Below are positions 5,125-28,198 of a stretch of 64,000 nt of DNA, in pieces; the first letter of the stretch is position 1; each line of letters begins with the position of its first letter. The stretch spans positions 496,001 to 560,000 of the forward strand of contig JAMLHW010000002.1 of NCBI GenBank assembly GCA_023954475.1. Direction: 5' to 3'. The notes below the pieces were generated by a model. It was not told where the DNA came from. It made no database searches and was given only the letters and a program-made list of their open reading frames with translations. The DNA comes from Anaerolineae bacterium. Its GTDB lineage: Bacteria > Chloroflexota > Anaerolineae > Promineifilales > Promineifilaceae. The position numbers and the translations under genes are program-made.

Positions 5125-5943
5125 TTAATCCGACTGGTCAGTGACAATGATCGGCGTGAACAAGTGCGTCGCTTCGCTGTCTAACGATGCCGACGTTCGC
5201 GTGCGTCGCGTCTCGTCCAAACCTTCGCCGTAGATCAGCGACTTATCGCTTAGTGTAATAACGTCACCGGGCTGCAATATGCATTCATCAATGCGGCGTC
5301 CATTGACAAACGTACCGCCGCGACTGCCCAAATCGGTAATGATGAATCGGCCGAAACGCCAGTGGATTTGTGCATGACGACGGCTCACGGTGGCAGCATC
5401 GACAACCACATCGTTGTTGGCGCGGCGGCCAATGGTAACGACAGGGCGCTGCAACGGCACATGGTGCTTGCCGTCGATAATGAGAAAAGCGTCGAGTTGT
5501 CGCACGTCAGCTTCGATCTGCCGCTCATCGGTTGTCGGCCGCAGCAAAATACCGGTTTCTTCGGCCGATGCAGCATTGTGAGCCGCATGAACAGCCACCT
5601 GATTGCGTCCCAAACCCGTGTCGGCGGTCAATTCGACCTGTGGCCAACCGATCAGACTCAAATCAGCACGCTGCGAAAAATCGACAACGATCTGCGCCAG
5701 GTCCTGCTCGATTGTGGGTTGATTTTCGCGCCAGAACATGTAGTCAGTTGGACTCAACGCCACCTGATAGTCATTGGGCAGCATGCCGTCGAGTCGGCCA
5801 GACTCCGCGACACGCAGCAATTCGGCCGAAATCTCTGTCATATCCAGCCTGCCGCTAAACAGGCGATTAAACGATCCTTCGACGAGTCGCCGTGCAATCG
5901 CTTCAAATTGGTCAATCGGTTTCTCTTTCATAAATACATTCAT
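5125..5943 (-). CDS. DUF3662 (FhaA-type N-terminal) plus FHA-domain protein
   Basis: A 272-residue cytoplasmic protein. Residues about 8-125 match the DUF3662/FhaA N-terminal domain (FEAIARRLVEGSFNRLFSGR, LPNDYQVALSPTDY), and residues about 165-245 form a canonical FHA domain with TIGRRANNDVVVD, SRRHAQIHW and DLGSRGGTFVNG. FhaA-like proteins are phosphothreonine readers tied to cell-wall synthesis and division in Actinobacteria. The role here is inferred by homology only. It is the first gene of a leftward set of three (this gene, TM-FHA, methyltransferase). Two starts are possible, 5943 and 5931; a GGATG sequence is better placed for 5931. Confidence 0.85.
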   Translation of the reverse strand: MNVFMKEKPIDQFEAIARRLVEGSFNRLFSGRLDMTEISAELLRVAESGRLDGMLPNDYQVALSPTDYMFWRENQPTIEQDLAQIVVDFSQRADLSLIGWPQVELTADTGLGRNQVAVHAAHNAASAEETGILLRPTTDERQIEADVRQLDAFLIIDGKHHVPLQRPVVTIGRRANNDVVVDAATVSRRHAQIHWRFGRFIITDLGSRGGTFVNGRRIDECILQPGDVITLSDKSLIYGEGLDETRRTRTSASLDSEATHLFTPIIVTDQSD

Positions 5944-6238: not shown

Positions 6239-7276
6239 ATGACACGCGAACAGATTCGCCTTACGTCGCTGGCTTCATGCGCCGGTTGAGCATCGAAACT
6301 CGGCCCGGCCGATTTGGCGCACGTGTTGCAGCCATTACACGACGTTTTCGACAAAAAGGCGTTTCCTAACCTGCTCGTCGGGCTTGAAAAAGCGGACGAC
6401 GCTGCCGTCTATCAGCTCAACAGCAAGCAGGCGATCATCAATACGACCGATTTCTTCCCACCTATCGTCGACGATCCCTACGACTTTGGCGCGATTGCGG
6501 CTGCCAATGCCATGTCCGATGTCTACGCGATGGGCGGCCAGGTGCTGTTTGCCGTCAACCTGGCTGCATTTCCCGACGATCAGGACCTCGACCTGTTGCG
6601 CGAAATCCTGCGCGGCGGCGCGGACAAAGTTGCCGAAGCAGGTGCAGTCATTGCCGGCGGTCACACTGTCAACGACAAGGAACCCAAGTACGGGCTGGCA
6701 GTGACTGGCATCATCGATCCGGCAGTTGTCAAACGCAAACACGGCGCATCCCCCGGCGACGTACTGTTGCTGACCAAGCCGCTCGGTGTCGGTGTCGTGA
6801 CGACGGCACTGAAAAACGGGCGCACGTCTGCAGAAGATGTAGCGTTTGCCACCGCCAACATGAAACTGCTCAACAGGCAAGCGGCCGAAGCAGCGCTGAT
6901 CGTCAACGCCCACGCGATGACCGATGTGACCGGTTTCGGGCTGCTCGGCCACGCTTACGAAATGGTCAACGGTACACCGGTGGACTTTCATTTTGACTTC
7001 AAAGCCATGCCGTGGACATTGGGCGTCCATCGCTACGGCGAAATGGGTGCCTTTCCGGGTGGCATGAGCCACAATCGCATGTATTTTTACCCCCATGTGA
7101 CCTTTGGTGAAGATGTTCCGGAGTTGATCCAACAAATGTTGTGGACGCCGGAAACGTCTGGTGGTTTGCTGATCGCTGTCGATCCCGATTCGGCCGAATC
7201 ATACAGCACGCTTTGTCCATCGGCCGTTGTTATTGGTCAGGTGACCATGGGCAGTGGACATCTTTTCGTGACATGA
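6239..7276 (+). CDS. selD: Selenide, water dikinase SelD containing selenocysteine (in-frame UGA at codon 17)
   Basis: SelD makes selenophosphate from selenide and ATP, the donor for selenocysteine synthesis. The obvious open frame begins only at 6314, but the frame continues upstream through a TGA at 6287-6289 to an ATG at 6239 preceded by GGAG. The translation is MTREQIRLTSLASCAG-U-ASKLG, placing the UGA at residue 17, where E. coli SelD has its catalytic Cys17. Downstream blocks follow the family: EKADDAAVY, TTDFFPPIVDDPYDFG, AGGHTVND and DVTGFGLLGHA. Total length is 345 residues, normal for SelD. A stem-loop at 6296-6315 could act as the bacterial SECIS. selB at 31945 encodes the required elongation factor. 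A gene caller treating TGA as stop would lose the active-site segment. Confidence 0.93.
6287..6315 (+). promoter_or_regulatory. selD UGA(Sec) codon and candidate bacterial SECIS hairpin
   Basis: The UGA at 6287-6289 is followed after 6 nt by a stem-loop: AAA (6296-6298) and TCGGC (6300-6304) pair with GCCGA (6308-6312) and TTT (6313-6315) around a CCG loop, with one bulged C. The loop lies about 16 nt after the UGA, within the usual bacterial SECIS window. The loop lacks the classic GU dinucleotide, so this is a candidate only. Confidence 0.5.
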
Positions 7277-21288: not shown

Positions 21289-21603
21289 TCAAGCGGCTAT
21301 CAATGGCCTGATTTGGGACATTTCACTTTGAATAGATTGTGCAGCATCCCACAAATCCACTGCTAGCTGTGCGTTGAGCCAAAATTCAGGTGAGTTGCCA
21401 AACAAACGTCCCAGCCGCAACGCCATCTCCGGACTCACCCGACGACGTTCACGCAATAATTCATTGACGGACTGCCGTGAGACGCCAATTGCTTTGGCGA
21501 GTGTACTGGCTGTCAAACCAAAATCCGGTAGAAAATCTTCGCGCAACATCTCACCTGGGTGAGTAGGTCGACGTTTCATTGGTATGTTGTTAGAAATCGT
21601 CAT
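21289..21603 (-). CDS. higA: HigA-family antitoxin (XRE helix-turn-helix)
   Basis: A 104-residue DNA-binding antitoxin. The segment RRPTHPGEMLREDFLPDFGL followed by STLAKAIGVSRQSVNELLRERR is the HigA/VapI helix-turn-helix. The order is toxin first then antitoxin, as is usual for higBA. The start has GAGG 7 bp upstream and lies 9 bp after the toxin stop. It would neutralise HigB and repress the pair through the dyads at 21900-21926. Confidence 0.9.
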   Translation of the reverse strand: MTISNNIPMKRRPTHPGEMLREDFLPDFGLTASTLAKAIGVSRQSVNELLRERRRVSPEMALRLGRLFGNSPEFWLNAQLAVDLWDAAQSIQSEMSQIRPLIAA

Positions 21604-21612
21604 ATTAAGCCT

Positions 21613-21894
21613 CTAGTGATAGTCACATACTTCAACGTCATAAGCATCGCCATCATCAAACCGAAAGCAGATGCGCCACTGATCATTAATCGAGATCGAG
21701 TATTGACCTTTTCGATCTCCTTTGAGCTCATGAAGTCGATTCCCGGGCGGTACTTTGAGGTCATCGAGTTTGGTCGCCAGATTAACGTACTCGAGTTTTC
21801 GGGCGGCTCGTTTTGCCACGTCTGGTGGGAATCGCTTTGCTCTTCCTGTGGTGTACAGATCTCGAGTTTGCCGATCTGCAAACGTTTTTATCAT
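21613..21894 (-). CDS. higB: HigB/RelE-family mRNA interferase toxin
   Basis: A 93-residue RelE-superfamily toxin. The segments RKLEYVNLATKLDDLKVPPGN and WRICFRFDDGDAYDVEVCDYH are characteristic of HigB, which cleaves mRNA at the ribosome. The Arg and C-terminal Asp/His positions of the group are present and the length is standard, so it appears intact. It precedes higA in one unit, next to the mobile region at 23-27 kb, a common setting for toxin-antitoxin pairs. Confidence 0.9.
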   Translation of the reverse strand: MIKTFADRQTRDLYTTGRAKRFPPDVAKRAARKLEYVNLATKLDDLKVPPGNRLHELKGDRKGQYSISINDQWRICFRFDDGDAYDVEVCDYH

Positions 21895-22079: not shown

Positions 22080-23105
22080 TCAATCGTCCAGACTTTCCGC
22101 GAATTGAAGTGCATCCTGCATCAGCCCCGGCACATCGCGGTCTATTGGCAGCCGGGCACCGTGACATTTGACCACTTCACCGGCAACGAAATTGCCGACG
22201 GCGAGTGCCTGGCGTACCGCGAGCCCCTGCATGCTCGCCGCGAGGAATGCCGCCAGAAAACTATCGCCTGCTCCCGTAGAATCTACCGCCTCAATTGGCT
22301 GTGTCGGTAGTAAAAACTCGTCAGCGCCGAATCGGGCAAAGGCACCATCGGCGTCCAACGTCACAGCCGCATCAATGGCAGTTTTGGCGAGTTCGATTCT
22401 CACTTGGTCAAGGGGAGCCTCCGGTCGGAGGCCGACGAGCACGGCGGCCTGCGCCAGGTTGCCTGCCACCATCTGGGCTTTTGGCCCAAACGTATGGAAG
22501 AAAGCGCGGTAGCTATCGACGATTTTGGTGCCGGCAAGCGTAAGCACAAACGGTACACCTCTCTCCTCTGCTGCTTGTATACAAAACAACAGCGCCGCTT
22601 CAGATTCCGGGCCAAAATCGAGCGCACTGCCGTCAAGCAACACTAGCTGTGCGCTTTTAATCGCTTCGCTGTCGATCCGGGCCGGACTCAACAGGGCGTT
22701 TGCGCCATGCGTCAAGATGATTGTCCGTGTCGCAGCAGCGCTGTACAGATAGAAGTCATACCCCGTAACGGCTCCACGTTCGAGTTCGGAGAGAAACGCA
22801 ATTGCGGCTTGCTCGAAATTGGAGACAAATAATCGGCCGAAACGGTCATCGCCACCAACACCCATGAAACCGCAGTTGACGCCGACACGTGCTAAAAGGT
22901 CCGTGGTGTTGGCGACGGAACCGCCGCTGCGAGGTTCGGGAAGAGTGCCGCGACTGCTTTCAAGCGCAAGGCGGAGCGCCGCCATGCGTTCCACAGAGAC
23001 CTCCGCATAATCACCCGGCGTAAAACCGAGTTCGCAGATTTCCGCGTCACCGGCAGCGAGATTGATACCGCCGGTAACAGCACCAAGGGCGACGACTGAC
23101 GTCAT
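22080..23105 (-). CDS. PfkB-family sugar kinase
   Basis: About 341 residues of the ribokinase/PfkB family. The C-terminal signature DSTGAGDSFLAAFL contains the catalytic Asp, and the N-terminal half has the GGSVANTTDLLARVG and GVGGDDRFGRLF blocks typical of adenosine- or fructose-kinase-like members. The substrate (a sugar or nucleoside) is not clear. I chose the ATG at 23103-23105, with AGG about 8 bp upstream. The gene begins 28 bp after an attC-like site, so it could have been captured downstream of a cassette; but it carries one copy of the genome-wide TCGGCCGA motif (22832) and fits the host composition better than the next gene. Confidence 0.88.
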   Translation of the reverse strand: MTSVVALGAVTGGINLAAGDAEICELGFTPGDYAEVSVERMAALRLALESSRGTLPEPRSGGSVANTTDLLARVGVNCGFMGVGGDDRFGRLFVSNFEQAAIAFLSELERGAVTGYDFYLYSAAATRTIILTHGANALLSPARIDSEAIKSAQLVLLDGSALDFGPESEAALLFCIQAAEERGVPFVLTLAGTKIVDSYRAFFHTFGPKAQMVAGNLAQAAVLVGLRPEAPLDQVRIELAKTAIDAAVTLDADGAFARFGADEFLLPTQPIEAVDSTGAGDSFLAAFLAASMQGLAVRQALAVGNFVAGEVVKCHGARLPIDRDVPGLMQDALQFAESLDD

Positions 23106-23133: not shown

Positions 23134-23245
23134 ACCCAACGCCACCATCAGCCGCGCTGGCGCGGGTCACCAAAACCTTTGCTAATCCCAAAATAGGTAG
23201 CCGTCCGAGGCATCGCGCCAGCGTCGGCTGGATGGGTTGTTAGGT
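23134..23245 (-). other. attC-like recombination site 1 (integron cassette end)
   Basis: ACCCAAC (23134-23140, fits RYYYAAC) and GTTAGGT (23239-23245, fits GTTRRRY) bound a 112-bp site. The arms inside pair as CAGCCG-CGCTGGCGC (23149-23163) with GCGCCAGCG-T-CGGCTG (23215-23230), leaving a single extrahelical T at 23224. Core sites plus a stem with an unpaired base are the hallmarks of attC. The lipoprotein gene stop lies 5 bp away, as in a gene cassette. Confidence 0.75.
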
Positions 23246-23250
23246 GCTTT

Positions 23251-24243
23251 TTAGTTGTTTCTGCTTTCTTGCAAGATGTAATTGCCATCTTGTAACGTAT
23301 ATATCCGAACTTCCTCAAATTGACTTATTTCATGCTCTATATACTTTGTTCCGACGCTTACGATTTTGAGATCGTAGAAGTCAAGCTGTTCGCCAGGGAT
23401 GAATTCCAACGTGGATGTATAAGACCAAGAATTCCTGACAACTTCTGCCTCAGCAGTAAGTATGGAGTTCAAGAAACTTAACTTGCCGTTTAGATAAGCA
23501 ATCACAAAGGTACTCCCTGCTGAGTTGCCCGTGCTTGTATAGGTAGAGCGAAAAACCACGCCATATTGATCGGGCCCAATCTGCATCAACTGACCTTTAG
23601 GAGCACGGCCAAAGGAACCCGTTTCCACAATTTGATCGTTTCTTGTTTCTTCTAACCAAGTACCATCTCTTTTTGTAAATATTACTCCCCCAATCTTGGC
23701 GCCGCACGGATGACAATTTGTTAAGTAAATTCCCTCCGTCAAAAGAATAAATTTAGTCAAGCCATCTTGTTCAAAAAATCCACTAACTAAAGGCTTTATA
23801 GTTGTATACTGTAGGTCTGCTGGGCCAATAGATTTGACGTATACTTCTTGCTTCGCCAAATTGATGCATCCAGAATCCCCATAAAGCCATTGTAGAGCCA
23901 AATTAATACTCATTTCCTCCGTCAGTGATGCACCTGATGGCTTTGTAACTAAAACACAATCAGGTGTAGGAATTTCAGCAACACGGGGAGGAGAGGTAGC
24001 GGGAATAGGGCCTGGATACGGTGGAGAAGCAGTTGGCAAAGTTTCAATTTGAGATGGGTAGGCGATCTGCGTGAGTGGAGTGGCGGAAATTGATGAGGTT
24101 TCCATCGGTTCTTTAATGATTGGCTCCGTCAGATTGTCTATCGTTTGAGGTGGTTCGGTGCTTGTTGTACATCCAACGAGAGATATCCAACACATGCCAG
24201 TTAAAAACAACAACACGATACCTTTCAAAAAATTGGTCTGCAT
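23251..24243 (-). CDS. Lipoprotein of unknown function in an integron-like gene cassette
   Basis: A 330-residue predicted lipoprotein with a signal (GIVLLFLTGMCWISLVGC; lipobox LVGC, Cys near 25), then a Thr/Pro/Ser-rich linker to about residue 95 and a mostly beta C-terminal domain. I recognise no family. Base composition is clearly more AT-rich than the neighbours and the gene lacks the TCGGCCGA motif. The ATG lies 15 bp after attC-like site 2 and the stop lies 5 bp before attC-like site 1, exactly the layout of a mobile gene cassette with a single ORF. The protein probably acts on the outer face of the membrane. Origin by lateral transfer is inferred from composition and flanking sites. 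Confidence 0.7.
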   Translation of the reverse strand: MQTNFLKGIVLLFLTGMCWISLVGCTTSTEPPQTIDNLTEPIIKEPMETSSISATPLTQIAYPSQIETLPTASPPYPGPIPATSPPRVAEIPTPDCVLVTKPSGASLTEEMSINLALQWLYGDSGCINLAKQEVYVKSIGPADLQYTTIKPLVSGFFEQDGLTKFILLTEGIYLTNCHPCGAKIGGVIFTKRDGTWLEETRNDQIVETGSFGRAPKGQLMQIGPDQYGVVFRSTYTSTGNSAGSTFVIAYLNGKLSFLNSILTAEAEVVRNSWSYTSTLEFIPGEQLDFYDLKIVSVGTKYIEHEISQFEEVRIYTLQDGNYILQESRNN

Positions 24244-24257
24244 GTTAGCAATTCTGC

Positions 24258-24321
24258 ACCTAACGGAAAAGGATTGATGCGGCGCGAAGTCTTCGGAGCC
24301 GCCGCATAATCATTGTTGAAC
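24258..24321 (-). other. attC-like recombination site 2 (integron cassette start)
   Basis: ACCTAAC (24258-24264) and GTTGAAC (24315-24321) fit RYYYAAC and GTTRRRY. The arms GATT-G-ATGCGGCG (24272-24284) and CGCCGCATAATC pair fully except for one extrahelical G at 24276, around a short loop with a GAAGTCTTC inner dyad. At about 64 bp it is a compact attC. The last four bases, GAAC, abut the IS91-like element, and GAAC is the classic IS91 target tetranucleotide. Confidence 0.75.
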
Positions 24322-24556
24322 TGAGCCGTTGAAGGGTGAGCTATAGGGAAAAAGGTCTCTGGAAATCTGAAAAGTCGAACCCACCGCAATCAACTAGCGT
24401 ATTCATTGTAACGGGACAAGTGATAAAAACGCAAGCATTTGTGCGTGTGATTGGTTGGGTGAACAGGTGCATGGGAGAGTGAGAACAGCGAGTAGGCAAA
24501 CAAAGAGCGCGGAAACGGTAGGTCGCAACCGCAGGGCAAGCGCGTCAAAGCAAACG

Positions 24557-25636
24557 CTATGGTGGACAGCGAGAGCGGGGACGCAACGTTTGAACGAGGC
24601 GCAGTGGTTGCTGGCAGTTGGCACACAGGGGTCGATACGAAGCGCTGGCCGTTGTCGGATGGTCAGTTTCGCTGGTTGGGGTCTTCGGTGAGAGCTGCTG
24701 CCGACAAAGAGCCAGTTGAGACCGTTTGCATGGAGCGAAGAGGCCATAGTAACGGACTTTGACAAACCCTTTTGGCAAGACATGCTGCAAAAACCGCCGC
24801 AGAAACTCGAGCACGTCCAAAGTGCAGGAACGCCACTGCCCGGTGTCCGACTTGCGAAAGCGGAAAGTGACTTTGCCATTCTCGAACTTGACGATGCGAC
24901 GATTAGAAAGGGCAACACGGAAAATGTAGGGGGCAAGGTATTTGAGCGCAGCTTGCCCTTGCCCAACTGGTTGCGAATGGACAACCCAATCGCCGCGCCA
25001 AACGGAGGATGGCACAGAGGAGAACAGCGGTGTCTGGCGCAGGGCATCACGAAATTTGGCGCGGAACAGCTTCGACAGTGCTTTGACAGGCACAAAGAAG
25101 TTGTGCGTAGTGGCCCGCCACTGCGCGTTGTCACTCAAACCACCACCAGGAACGAGAAAATGCACGTGCGGATGGTAGGACAAGTTACGCCCCCAAGTGT
25201 GCAGCACACCCACCATCCCTATCTGCCCACCAATAAAACGGTCATCTTGCGCTAACTGCTGTGTCGCTTGGGCTGCACAGCGGAACAGCAAGTTGTAGAT
25301 CAGTCGCTGGTTTGCTCTGGCAACGGGGCGCAGCGGCTCAGGTAACGTGAAGGTGAGCATGAAGTAGTGGGTTGGCAGGAGACGCACCTGCTGCTTCTGG
25401 AGCCACTGTTCACCCGTCTGGAATTGGCATTGTGGACAGTGGCGATTGCGGCAGGAATGATATTGGTAGTGCGTAGTGTCGCACGACTGACAATGGTAGA
25501 CACGCCCTCCCAAAGCTGCCGTGCGACACTGTTCAATCGCGCTCAATGCTTGACGATGGCTTGACAGAAGTTGGGGTGCAAATTGGCTACGATAGGCGCG
25601 GCCCGCCTGCGCAACAATGCTGGCCAGCGTTACCAT
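24557..25636 (-). CDS. IS91-family HUH transposase
   Basis: A 359-residue rolling-circle transposase. The N-terminal zinc-binding segment is CQSCDTTHYQYHSCRNRHCPQCQ-like (three CxxC-type pairs, about residues 48-72). The HUH nuclease motif is HPHVHFLVPGGGL (about 173-185), and the region LKYLAPYIFRVALSNRRI (about 253-270) holds the catalytic tyrosine. These nick DNA at oriIS and attach covalently to it. The start overlaps the recombinase stop by 7 bp, indicating coupled translation. The C-terminal tail with CANCQQPLRL is typical. The gene appears intact. Confidence 0.93.
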   Translation of the reverse strand: MVTLASIVAQAGRAYRSQFAPQLLSSHRQALSAIEQCRTAALGGRVYHCQSCDTTHYQYHSCRNRHCPQCQFQTGEQWLQKQQVRLLPTHYFMLTFTLPEPLRPVARANQRLIYNLLFRCAAQATQQLAQDDRFIGGQIGMVGVLHTWGRNLSYHPHVHFLVPGGGLSDNAQWRATTHNFFVPVKALSKLFRAKFRDALRQTPLFSSVPSSVWRGDWVVHSQPVGQGQAALKYLAPYIFRVALSNRRIVKFENGKVTFRFRKSDTGQWRSCTLDVLEFLRRFLQHVLPKGFVKVRYYGLFAPCKRSQLALCRQQLSPKTPTSETDHPTTASASYRPLCANCQQPLRLVQTLRPRSRCPP

Positions 25637-26526
25637 GGCACAGACTCCTGAGGAATTTCTAGCTCTCCCATCAGTCGGTTGATGACGGCGGCGGCACGTG
25701 TCTCTCCGTCGCTAGTTAGATGGGTATAGATCGCCGTCGTCCGCAACGAGTTGTGTCCAAGATAGGTTTGAATTTGGCGCAAGTTGACACCCGCTTCCAG
25801 CAAGTGGGTTGCGTATGAATGACGCAAGGTGTGTACCGAAACAGCTTTTCGAATCCCTTGAGCAGCCACCGCTTGCTTGAGTGCTGTCCGCATCCCGCGT
25901 TCATTCATCGGCTTTGTCGCATCCATACCTGGTCGCTCACCTCGGCGGCGACGGCCTGGAAATAGCCACTTGGGATGCCGATGGGTTGCCCAATAGTGGC
26001 GCAATAGCTGGCACGTCCCCTCTGGCAAGGGAACATAACGGTCTTTGCCTCCTTTCCCTTTCTGAATGTGCAGCAGCATCCGTGCGCTGTCGATCTGGCT
26101 CACTTGCAAGCTCAATCCTTCACTCAGCCGCAGCCCACAACTGTAAATCGTCGTCAAACACGTTCGATAATCTAGTCGATGGATTCCTCCCAACACAGCT
26201 TTGACTTCGGCTCGGCTCAAGATGACGGGGAGTTTCTTCGACTTCTCTGGTCGGATTAAGTCGAAGATGCGCCATTCCCGTTCGAGCGTCTGCTCATAGA
26301 AGAACTTGATGCCACACAGCGCAATCGTCACGCTGCCTCGTGCCGCCTTTTTCTCGTTTTTCAAGTACAGGAAATAGCGGCGAATATCCTCCTCATTGAG
26401 TTGGTCTGGCGACCGACCATGATACTCTGCGAGTTGCCGCACCGCTCTCACGTATGCTTCTTGTGTCTTTGGGGAAAGTCCGCGTAATTGCAAGTCTTCC
26501 TGCATTTTCTGGCGTAAGATTGTCAT
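25630..26526 (-). CDS. Tyrosine recombinase associated with the IS91-like element
   Basis: A 298-residue phage-integrase-family recombinase. Residues about 3-95 form the SAM-like core-binding domain (LRGLSPKTQEAYVRAVRQLA). The catalytic domain shows the first Arg in YSCGLRLSEGLSL, HTLRHSYATHLLEAG (His-x-x-Arg) and the nucleophile Tyr in TTAIYTHL. It lacks the extra helix region expected of an integron integrase IntI between the Lys and HxxR motifs, so I do not call it IntI despite the attC sites nearby. Such recombinases are often paired with IS91-type transposases; its exact job in their movement is not settled. Confidence 0.88.
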   Translation of the reverse strand: MTILRQKMQEDLQLRGLSPKTQEAYVRAVRQLAEYHGRSPDQLNEEDIRRYFLYLKNEKKAARGSVTIALCGIKFFYEQTLEREWRIFDLIRPEKSKKLPVILSRAEVKAVLGGIHRLDYRTCLTTIYSCGLRLSEGLSLQVSQIDSARMLLHIQKGKGGKDRYVPLPEGTCQLLRHYWATHRHPKWLFPGRRRRGERPGMDATKPMNERGMRTALKQAVAAQGIRKAVSVHTLRHSYATHLLEAGVNLRQIQTYLGHNSLRTTAIYTHLTSDGETRAAAVINRLMGELEIPQESVPW

Positions 26527-26896
26527 GAGTCTATCTCCATTCGTTACTGCTTGTTAACGGTTGCTATGGAGATAGTACTCTTTTCTCTACCATCTATTCG
26601 ATTTTGTTTCTCACGGACTTCTTGACTGGCAGCCTGCGCGCAGCGCTTAGTTCAACTAGTTATTCACCTGCATGCATTGCAGGGTAATCCGCTCCTATCG
26701 CATTTATCCCGCAAAATCTGCAGCATAAACCCGCAAATCCCGGAAAATAGCTGCATAAAGTGCAGGGTAACACGCACACCGTGTGTTTATGCTGCACTGC
26801 ATGCAGGATAAACCGTCTAAACTGAGCAAAAACCGACACCCACATTTTACGCTTTCGAGTGCACCTGTCAAGGGACATTTGGCGTGTCGCAACCGC
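26527..26896. other. Gene-free, dyad-rich stretch right of the IS91-like element
   Basis: No gene is visible in these 370 bp. The left part is presumably the right end of the mobile element. The stretch holds an attC-core-like half site GTTCAAC (26651-26657) and the repeat cluster described at 26678-26814. It ends just before the stop of the flippase gene. Confidence 0.5.
26678..26814. repeat. Cluster of short direct and inverted repeats of type TGCAGNNTAA
   Basis: Copies read TGCAGGGTAATCC (26678), TGCAGCATAAACC (26719), TGCAGGGTAACAC (26761) and TGCAGGATAAACC (26802), with inverted relatives ATTTATCCCGC (about 26702) and GTTTATGCTGCA (26784-26795). The pair at 26761 and 26784 forms a large imperfect hairpin centred on CACAC-C-GTGTG. 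The pattern resembles a protein-binding array or folded DNA/RNA; I cannot assign a function. Confidence 0.55.
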
Positions 26897-28198
26897 CTAA
26901 TCTGTCGGGCTGGGCGCGTCCAGCGGGAAGGTAGGCGTGCGTCGAACGAGCGTGGTTATGCCGACCAAGTTAGCGGCGACGCCTCCGGCAACAAGAATCA
27001 GCGCGACTTGCTGCAACTCGTCGTGAAACAGGACAATGGCGCTAGCTTGCGCGACGACGATGATCGCCAGCGCCGCCACGAAGAGCGTGCGGCGCAATGA
27101 CAAGGCGTAGTTAAGCCAGATGTTGGTCGCGGCGTACAGCGTCGTGGCAATACCGACAATTCCCAGCACCAAACCCGGATTAGCATACGCGCCGCGGAAG
27201 ACCGTATCGACAATTAGGCTCGGCAACAAGAAATAGACTGCCGTCAAGGCCAATCCTGCCGCCAGCGTGGCACCGAGTGCCAACAGCAACAACGGGCGCG
27301 GATCGCGGCCTTTTGCCTGCCGATCGACAGCTTTGGGGAACAAGACCATGCCCAGTGCCAGCGGAATAAACAGGTTCATCTTGCCCAGCGTGACCACGAC
27401 GCCGTAATTGCCTGCCGTCTCCGGATCGAAGAAGCTCTTGACGAGAATGGCATCCATATTGACGAGCACGGCAAACGAGAGTAAACCGACGAGGGTCAAC
27501 ATGGTGTAGCTGCGGCTGATATGCGGCAGGGTGATGGCTTCGGCCGAATCCCTGCCTGCCCTGCGCTGTGGCCGCAAAAACCAGAGCGCGAGCACGCACG
27601 CAAGCGCGCTCGCTACCGGCAACGCCAGCAGCGCCCCAAACGCCTGCCAGCCGATCAGGATAAAGACGACGGCAAACACCATGCGCCCGATCGCCTGCGT
27701 CACCTGTACGCTGGCCAGCCCGACAAAATGCTGAATGCCCTGCAGAACGCCATCAGTTACAGGCCGCAAAAACAGCAGCAGCAGGGTCACGCTTGCCGCC
27801 CACAATGGACTGGTTGACGGCAGTTGCAGGAGTGGCGCAATCAGCGGACTGAGCAACGCCATGATCGCCGTCGCGATGACGCCCCACTGCCACGCCCAGC
27901 GCCAGCCACGCTTGAAAAATCGGCCGATAACCGGATTCGCATCAGCGCGCGTGTTGATTTCGGCCGAATAATACGCCGTCACATTGCGGATCACATTGGT
28001 CACATGCACCATGATCTGCACGATGGCCGCCACCGCTACAAATGCGCCAAACGCCACCGGCCCCAACATCGATCCCGCGACGAGATTGGTGAGATAGTCA
28101 AATCCACCCGCCAGCACCATCGCGCCGGTCATCAGGACACTGTCAAAGGCGTCGGAACGGCGTACCGTATTAAAGCGGGTGCGGAGGGAGGTTGACAC
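26897..28198 (-). CDS. Polysaccharide flippase (MATE/Wzx-like)
   Basis: A 433-residue polytopic membrane protein with about 12 hydrophobic segments and few charges, matching the MOP superfamily of lipid-linked oligosaccharide flippases (RfbX/Wzx). Typical are the early AGGFDYLTNLVAGSMLGPVAFG and the mid-protein NMDAILVKSFFDPETAGNYGVV. It would flip undecaprenyl-linked glycans across the membrane. It is the last of three leftward genes after two glycosyltransferases, with only 6 bp to the GT upstream, so they form an envelope-polysaccharide operon. The flippase 3' end is the boundary between host-like sequence and the accessory region. Confidence 0.82.
   Translation of the reverse strand: MSTSLRTRFNTVRRSDAFDSVLMTGAMVLAGGFDYLTNLVAGSMLGPVAFGAFVAVAAIVQIMVHVTNVIRNVTAYYSAEINTRADANPVIGRFFKRGWRWAWQWGVIATAIMALLSPLIAPLLQLPSTSPLWAASVTLLLLFLRPVTDGVLQGIQHFVGLASVQVTQAIGRMVFAVVFILIGWQAFGALLALPVASALACVLALWFLRPQRRAGRDSAEAITLPHISRSYTMLTLVGLLSFAVLVNMDAILVKSFFDPETAGNYGVVVTLGKMNLFIPLALGMVLFPKAVDRQAKGRDPRPLLLLALGATLAAGLALTAVYFLLPSLIVDTVFRGAYANPGLVLGIVGIATTLYAATNIWLNYALSLRRTLFVAALAIIVVAQASAIVLFHDELQQVALILVAGGVAANLVGITTLVRRTPTFPLDAPSPTD

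Follow-up and report, generated by a model that had tools for sequence, protein, structure and literature searches.

A probable decayed chromosomal integron with an IS91-family element between attI and a lipoprotein gene cassette

The window analysed here, a 64,000-nt stretch of DNA from an Anaerolineae bacterium, contains what is very probably a decayed chromosomal integron that has lost its integrase gene, intI, and has retained a Pc-like promoter, an attI site and one gene cassette. Along the minus strand, the array would run from a remnant of the intI start through the Pc-like promoter, attI, an IS91-family element and the lipoprotein cassette to an attC site, here called site A (Table 1). 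An integron integrase would have inserted the lipoprotein cassette at the local attI, and intI would later have been deleted, leaving its first codons. The IS91-family element, which carries a tyrosine recombinase, would have entered at the core where attI meets the cassette; either this entry or the loss of intI may have come first. Owing to this position of the element, its 3' hairpin (site B) now resembles a second attC. It is likely that intI was once here and was lost, since attI, the Pc-like promoter and the opening codons of the gene remain. Without intI, the cassette would stay in place unless it is acted on by an integrase in trans. The locus would thus present an integron that is dying while its promoter, landing site and captured gene are kept, and an orphan cassette that can be traced to its platform.

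Table 1. Positions in the window of the putative integron remains, the IS91-family element and adjoining features
Feature	Positions	Strand	Remarks
Site A, attC closing the lipoprotein cassette	23134-23245	minus	R'' ACCTAAC, R' GTTGGGT; variable loop of about 55 nt
Lipoprotein gene cassette	23140-24263	minus	Linear form between both G^TT crossover points; 1124 bp
Lipoprotein-like ORF	23251-24243	minus	330 aa, AT-rich; ORF and signal/lipobox-like N-terminus read from sequence
Site B, attC-like hairpin, 3' end of the IS91 element	24258-24321	minus	GTTCAAC...GTTAGGT
IS91-family element with tyrosine recombinase	24264-26655	minus	Exactly between attI core and lipoprotein cassette core
IS91-family (Y2/HUH) transposase	24557-25636	minus	359 aa; NF033538 406.9 bits, over cut-off; PF04986, PF14319
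Tyrosine recombinase	25630-26526	minus	298 aa; TIGR02249 207 bits, under cut-off of 265
attI	26656-26690	minus	...GCAGGTGAATAACTA G^TT, crossover 26656/26655
Pc-like promoter	26844-26871	minus	TTGACA-16-TAAAAT; 11/12 consensus positions; directed into attI and the array
intI remnant, about five codons	26884-26898	plus	GTG TCG CAA CCG CCT, aligned to C26 ATG TCA CAA CCA CCC
Flippase (MATE) gene, chromosomal	26897-28198	minus	3' end abuts intI remnant; widespread in the family

Are the two hairpins that flank the lipoprotein gene attC sites? A preliminary description of this DNA took both to be attC-like, with one extrahelical base each. The two pairs of cores stand where that description placed them. 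The attC character is confirmed for site A, and site B is matched by neither of the covariance models used here. The single extrahelical base is right for site B, where, unlike in a canonical attC, it is on the opposite arm, but site A has two, both on the left arm (L'' side) in gene orientation: a C at about position 9 and an A at about position 15. This is the arm, and these are near the positions, of the extrahelical bases in class 1 attC sites. The cores of site A show no core mismatch, with 6/7 positions in Watson-Crick pairs, and its fold is far better than those of its shuffled versions (z -3.8, none of 200 equally good).

Two purpose-built covariance models, distinct from the attC model of IntegronFinder, were used. 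The first, R1, was made from 11 aligned attC sites extracted from class 1 integrons on plasmids; the second, R2, from the R1 sites and those beside intact integrases of the same phylum. With filters off, R1 matched site A over its full length on the gene strand (27.2 bits, E 1.2e-4 in the window), and in a genome search site A was its sole match among the matches listed. R2 gave site A 37.7 bits (E 3.2e-7 / 2.6e-5), the second-best score in the window being 13.2 bits. The E-values of both models are rough, having come from a shortened calibration, and more weight belongs to the difference in bit scores. A comparison with Rfam gave no match. Judged by its sequence, site A is a genuine, canonical attC.

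In gene orientation the layout is site B, 15 nt, the ATG, the lipoprotein gene, its stop codon, 5 nt and site A, with spacings just as had been noted earlier. One gene is thus closely placed between two cores, and the start of this unit, GTTAGGTGC, is complementary to GCACCTAAC in site A at 9/9 positions. Complementarity between start and R'' is a hallmark of cassettes and is expected where a cassette closes on itself. The mobile-cassette layout that had been proposed is borne out by this boundary and by the one model-positive attC, and the gene is AT-rich as described, with a GC content of 42.3% for the cassette against 54.4% for the window. The encoded lipoprotein has no match in Pfam, NCBIfam or the PDB. 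No ortholog was found in 34 family genomes; two weak partial matches, in genomes G410 and G411, are for the most part short or of low complexity. Its AlphaFold model has a pLDDT of 45, and no fold was read from it. From the signal and lipobox-like N-terminus, our guess is that it would be an exported, host-variable surface protein. Lack of any attC match combined with conserved synteny of the lipoprotein gene had been named as grounds for giving up the cassette reading; what was found is a site A that matches the models and a gene without an ortholog in the family.

On the other side of the element, window positions 26653-26853 are 87% identical over 202 nt to positions 3545-3745 of contig C26 of the same genome, just upstream of an intI gene. 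Five family loci (L140, L141, L142, L144 and L145) have the motif ...GCAGGTNAATAA(C)TA, with GTT next, beside intact intI, so the site at 26656 is an attI. The locus therefore has an integron platform, recognised by its homology to C26 and by the motif beside intact intI in relatives. It is not a complete integron, which would have an intact intI beside attI, since about five intI codons are present. The Pc-like promoter is the best in the region and aligns with TTGACT-16-TACAAT upstream of the C26 intI. The local alignment score of the intI remnant was reached by none of 2000 shuffles; the remnant is short, at about five codons, and the assembly is a draft in 26 contigs. Four parts of the proposed history were demonstrated by comparison: that site A is an attC, the complementarity at the cassette boundary, the homology of attI and promoter and the boundaries of the element. 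Gene order around the MATE gene is not conserved, and for this reason no relative was found in which the locus is uninterrupted.

Directly after site A is a gene for a PfkB-family kinase (22080-23105, minus strand) with no close ortholog in 58 relatives. It may therefore be an acquired cassette whose attC has been lost, or it may be the first chromosomal gene. Downstream of it is a HigB-HigA toxin-antitoxin pair (21289-21894, minus strand), where no attC was found. Toxin-antitoxin pairs are typical cassette cargo, and in genome G411 (L116) HigBA is the first cassette, with an attC. R2 found no attC past the PfkB or HigBA genes, the whole window having one model-positive attC, so the array cannot be traced further.

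Site B is of a different origin. It has the cores and the hairpin, yet only 3/7 core positions are complementary, and it was absent among the R1 and R2 matches with filters off. A DNA search of relatives found its hairpin in many family genomes, with the conservation running into the IS91 element. In gene orientation the copies read ...CTTAGTTCAAC-hairpin and then variable sequence before an unrelated gene, and in most of them the variable sequence begins at a GTTRRRY core. Some copies are joined to a full IS91 element and most others to a shortened one. As site B fails both attC models and recurs as a conserved IS91 end, it is the 3' end of the element: its R'' (GTTCAAC) comes from the element, and the lipoprotein cassette contributes the core that forms its R' (GTTAGGT). 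An attC of a preceding cassette was considered for site B and dropped for these same reasons. Likewise, dispersed attI platforms were considered as an explanation of the recurring hairpin block and dropped, since the block ends complete IS91 elements at their 3' side and the solo copies are mostly truncated elements. Some solo 3' ends of 120-490 nt (L105-L109, L113-L117 and others) contain promoter-like sequences directed into downstream cassettes, and it is possible that such ends supply promoters to cassettes remote from any intI. The locus is also a caution that what looks like a second attC may belong to the end of a transposon.

Homology of the element with its copy in genome G428 ends at window positions 24259 and 26656, and its termini, the 5' end GTTGAACTAAGCGC and the 3' hairpin, are common to other genomes. 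When the element is removed in silico, attI joins the lipoprotein cassette directly, as ...AATAACTAG^TTAGGTGCAG. The product of its transposase gene is of the IS91 family, with the Y2/HUH transposase and the zinc-binding domain. The second protein, the tyrosine recombinase, is related to IntI by its profile and differs from IntI in its score and in the IntI-specific insert, which was sought by alignment and is missing. In a recombinase tree, the recombinases of these elements are separate from IntI, with weak support.

A scan of a genome collection by recombinase alignment identified 40 loci, mainly in Chloroflexota and Acidobacteriota. At their 5' ends, the Acidobacteriota elements have GTTGAACTAAATCCGC and most of those from Chloroflexota GTTGAACTAAGC. 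The 3' flank was readable in 16 cases, including that of the window; 13 of these start with GTT and 10 have the full GTTRRRY. The share of RRRY among those with GTT has a chance probability of about 2e-10, a figure that is only indicative because the rows share ancestry of their target sites. Several Chloroflexota copies are at attI, one of them beside an intact intI, as in genome G184, where the attI next to an intact intI holds a matching 5' end of the element. Two Acidobacteriota loci, L189 and L190, have a canonical attC whose R'' core is split by the element in reverse orientation, and when the element is removed the restored R'' is complementary at 7/7 positions to the start of the same cassette. 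Three copies, at L176, L178 and L188, are outside GTT cores. The positions of the copies support an apparent preference of the family for integron core sites and suggest core-site-specific insertion by these Chloroflexota and Acidobacteriota relatives of the IS91 element in the window. Downstream of the element in G428 (contig C35, L098, about 969-2128), genes for an 8xMP membrane protein and a TIR-domain protein are adjacent and are possibly a defence cassette.

Is the unit of IS91 transposase and recombinase a transposon that found a core, or is it a gene cassette itself? If it is a cassette, it would be the newest one, inserted at attI by an integron integrase, with site B as its own attC. 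Its ends are cassette-like, in that the R'' GTTCAAC pairs with the unit start GTTGAACTAAGC and a GTTRRRY core follows, and several copies (in the window, G184, G412 and G428) hold the first position at attI. However, neither attC model matches site B, whose extrahelical base is on the opposite arm, the reversed splitting of an existing attC R'' at L189 and L190 is not expected from a canonical attC x attI reaction, and three copies lie outside GTT cores. We regard a cassette nature of the unit as possible and somewhat doubtful. The element may instead have delivered the platform. By one-ended rolling-circle transposition past its 5' end, it could have brought a fragment with attI and Pc to a locus that never had a complete intI. 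IS91 and ISCR elements are known to overrun their terminator (PMC7923331), which favours this origin, and we retain it because G184 has a similar attI and element copy. There, on contig C7, the homology of a second attI and element copy to the intact integron on contig C37 stops 32 nt upstream of the intI start, a break near intI that resembles the window, where homology stops just inside intI. Against it, the shared break may represent two independent losses, and the lipoprotein cassette on the far side of the element, whose attC is genuine and correctly directed and whose start matches, is what would be expected of an array built at this attI. An attI borne by the element is, in our view, unlikely.

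Two further explanations dispense with a local integron. In one, an integron integrase acting in trans inserted the lipoprotein cassette off-target; there are intact or broken intI genes elsewhere in the genome and family, and it has been proposed that CALINs can arise by off-target insertion (PMC8618304). Against it, attI, the Pc-like promoter and the intI start codons adjoin the array in the correct order and orientation, and we consider it very improbable. In the other, the lipoprotein gene is an ordinary chromosomal gene between chance terminator-like hairpins. Many genes have flanking hairpins, and site B does fail the attC models. Yet a model trained on unrelated class 1 sites matches site A over its full length and in gene orientation, the boundary complementarity is 9/9, attI is adjacent and there is no ortholog in relatives. 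The attC and attI results rule this reading out, and we find it hardly credible.

Other remains of integrons are present in the genome that holds this probable decayed integron. The intI-like gene of contig C26 (L012, 3676-4759), near the contig end, is split over two frames, which may be real or an assembly error; its neighbours, on the opposite strand, are lipoprotein-type and Hypoth_Ymh ORFs. On contig C23 (L013), an attC at 5180-5279 (25.9 bits) lies next to an intI fragment (6418-6700) that is truncated and contains a stop. On contig C10 (L168, about 92.1-94.0 kb), an attC cluster near the contig end is a CALIN in the usual sense, accompanied by STAND NTPase, GNAT and toxin-antitoxin-like genes. 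The suggested check of the genome for intI and further attC sites thus produced attC on C10 and C23, but the only intI genes were frameshifted (C26) or truncated (C23), and no intact intI was seen in this genome. The genome-wide attC counts are lower bounds, because 150 first-look candidates were scored and the C10 and C23 sites, missed by the search, were seen on direct reading. Integrons had been said to be seldom discussed in this phylum, and this does not hold. Chloroflexi intI genes have been reported since 2008 (PMC2426708), and TIGR02249 scored over its cut-off in 42 of 400 Chloroflexota genomes and none of 14 controls, as well as in 24 of the 59 nearest genomes.

How does the locus compare with known types of integron? 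It had been described as a CALIN-like cassette. There is indeed no intI at the locus, but attI, the Pc-like promoter and intI codons adjoin, so it is not an isolated cassette. By the default of IntegronFinder 2.0, a CALIN has at least two attC within 4 kb and no intI (PMC9024848), and this default is not reached with one model-positive attC in the window. The locus matches what others have termed a SALIN (PMC9229058). It shares with CALINs and SALINs an attC cassette without intI, and loss of intI is a proposed origin of such loci (PMC8618304). It is unlike a CALIN in having a single attC, below the default of two (PMC9024848), and in retaining attI and a promoter, which do not define CALINs. 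With sedentary chromosomal integrons it has in common an attI with a G^TT crossover, a Pc-like promoter, complementarity of start and R'' and a canonical attC. It differs from them in an intI of about five codons, an IS91 element in the core between attI and cassette, and the one model-positive attC.

For the element, we tentatively propose a lineage of IS91 transposase and recombinase specialised for integrons, a proposal that may well prove wrong. It would insert with its own recombinase and a fixed polarity into the cores of attI or into attC R''/R' cores, and its 3' hairpin would form a new junction before the downstream cassettes. If true, integrons would gain a dedicated class of HUH transposon beside the attC-targeting introns and IS1111 elements, and this would bear on the interruption, silencing and re-expression of arrays in environmental phyla. 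Elements of related build have been described, namely ISShvi3, which like the window element combines an IS91 transposase with an extra tyrosine recombinase, and ISCR28, which has an attC at its end; reports place both next to attC sites (PMC9229058; PMC12772301). Unlike in these two, both ends here are exactly on integron cores, at attI in Chloroflexota or at the R'' box of attC in Acidobacteriota, and the termini, GTTGAACTAAGCGC and the GTTCAAC hairpin, are conserved. In the part of the literature covered, no published core-site specificity was found for elements with IS91 transposase and recombinase. Group IIC-attC introns and IS1111-attC elements are also mobile elements specialised for attC. 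Compared by description, they differ from the present family in their enzymes, a reverse transcriptase/ribozyme and a DEDD transposase, and in their insertion points.
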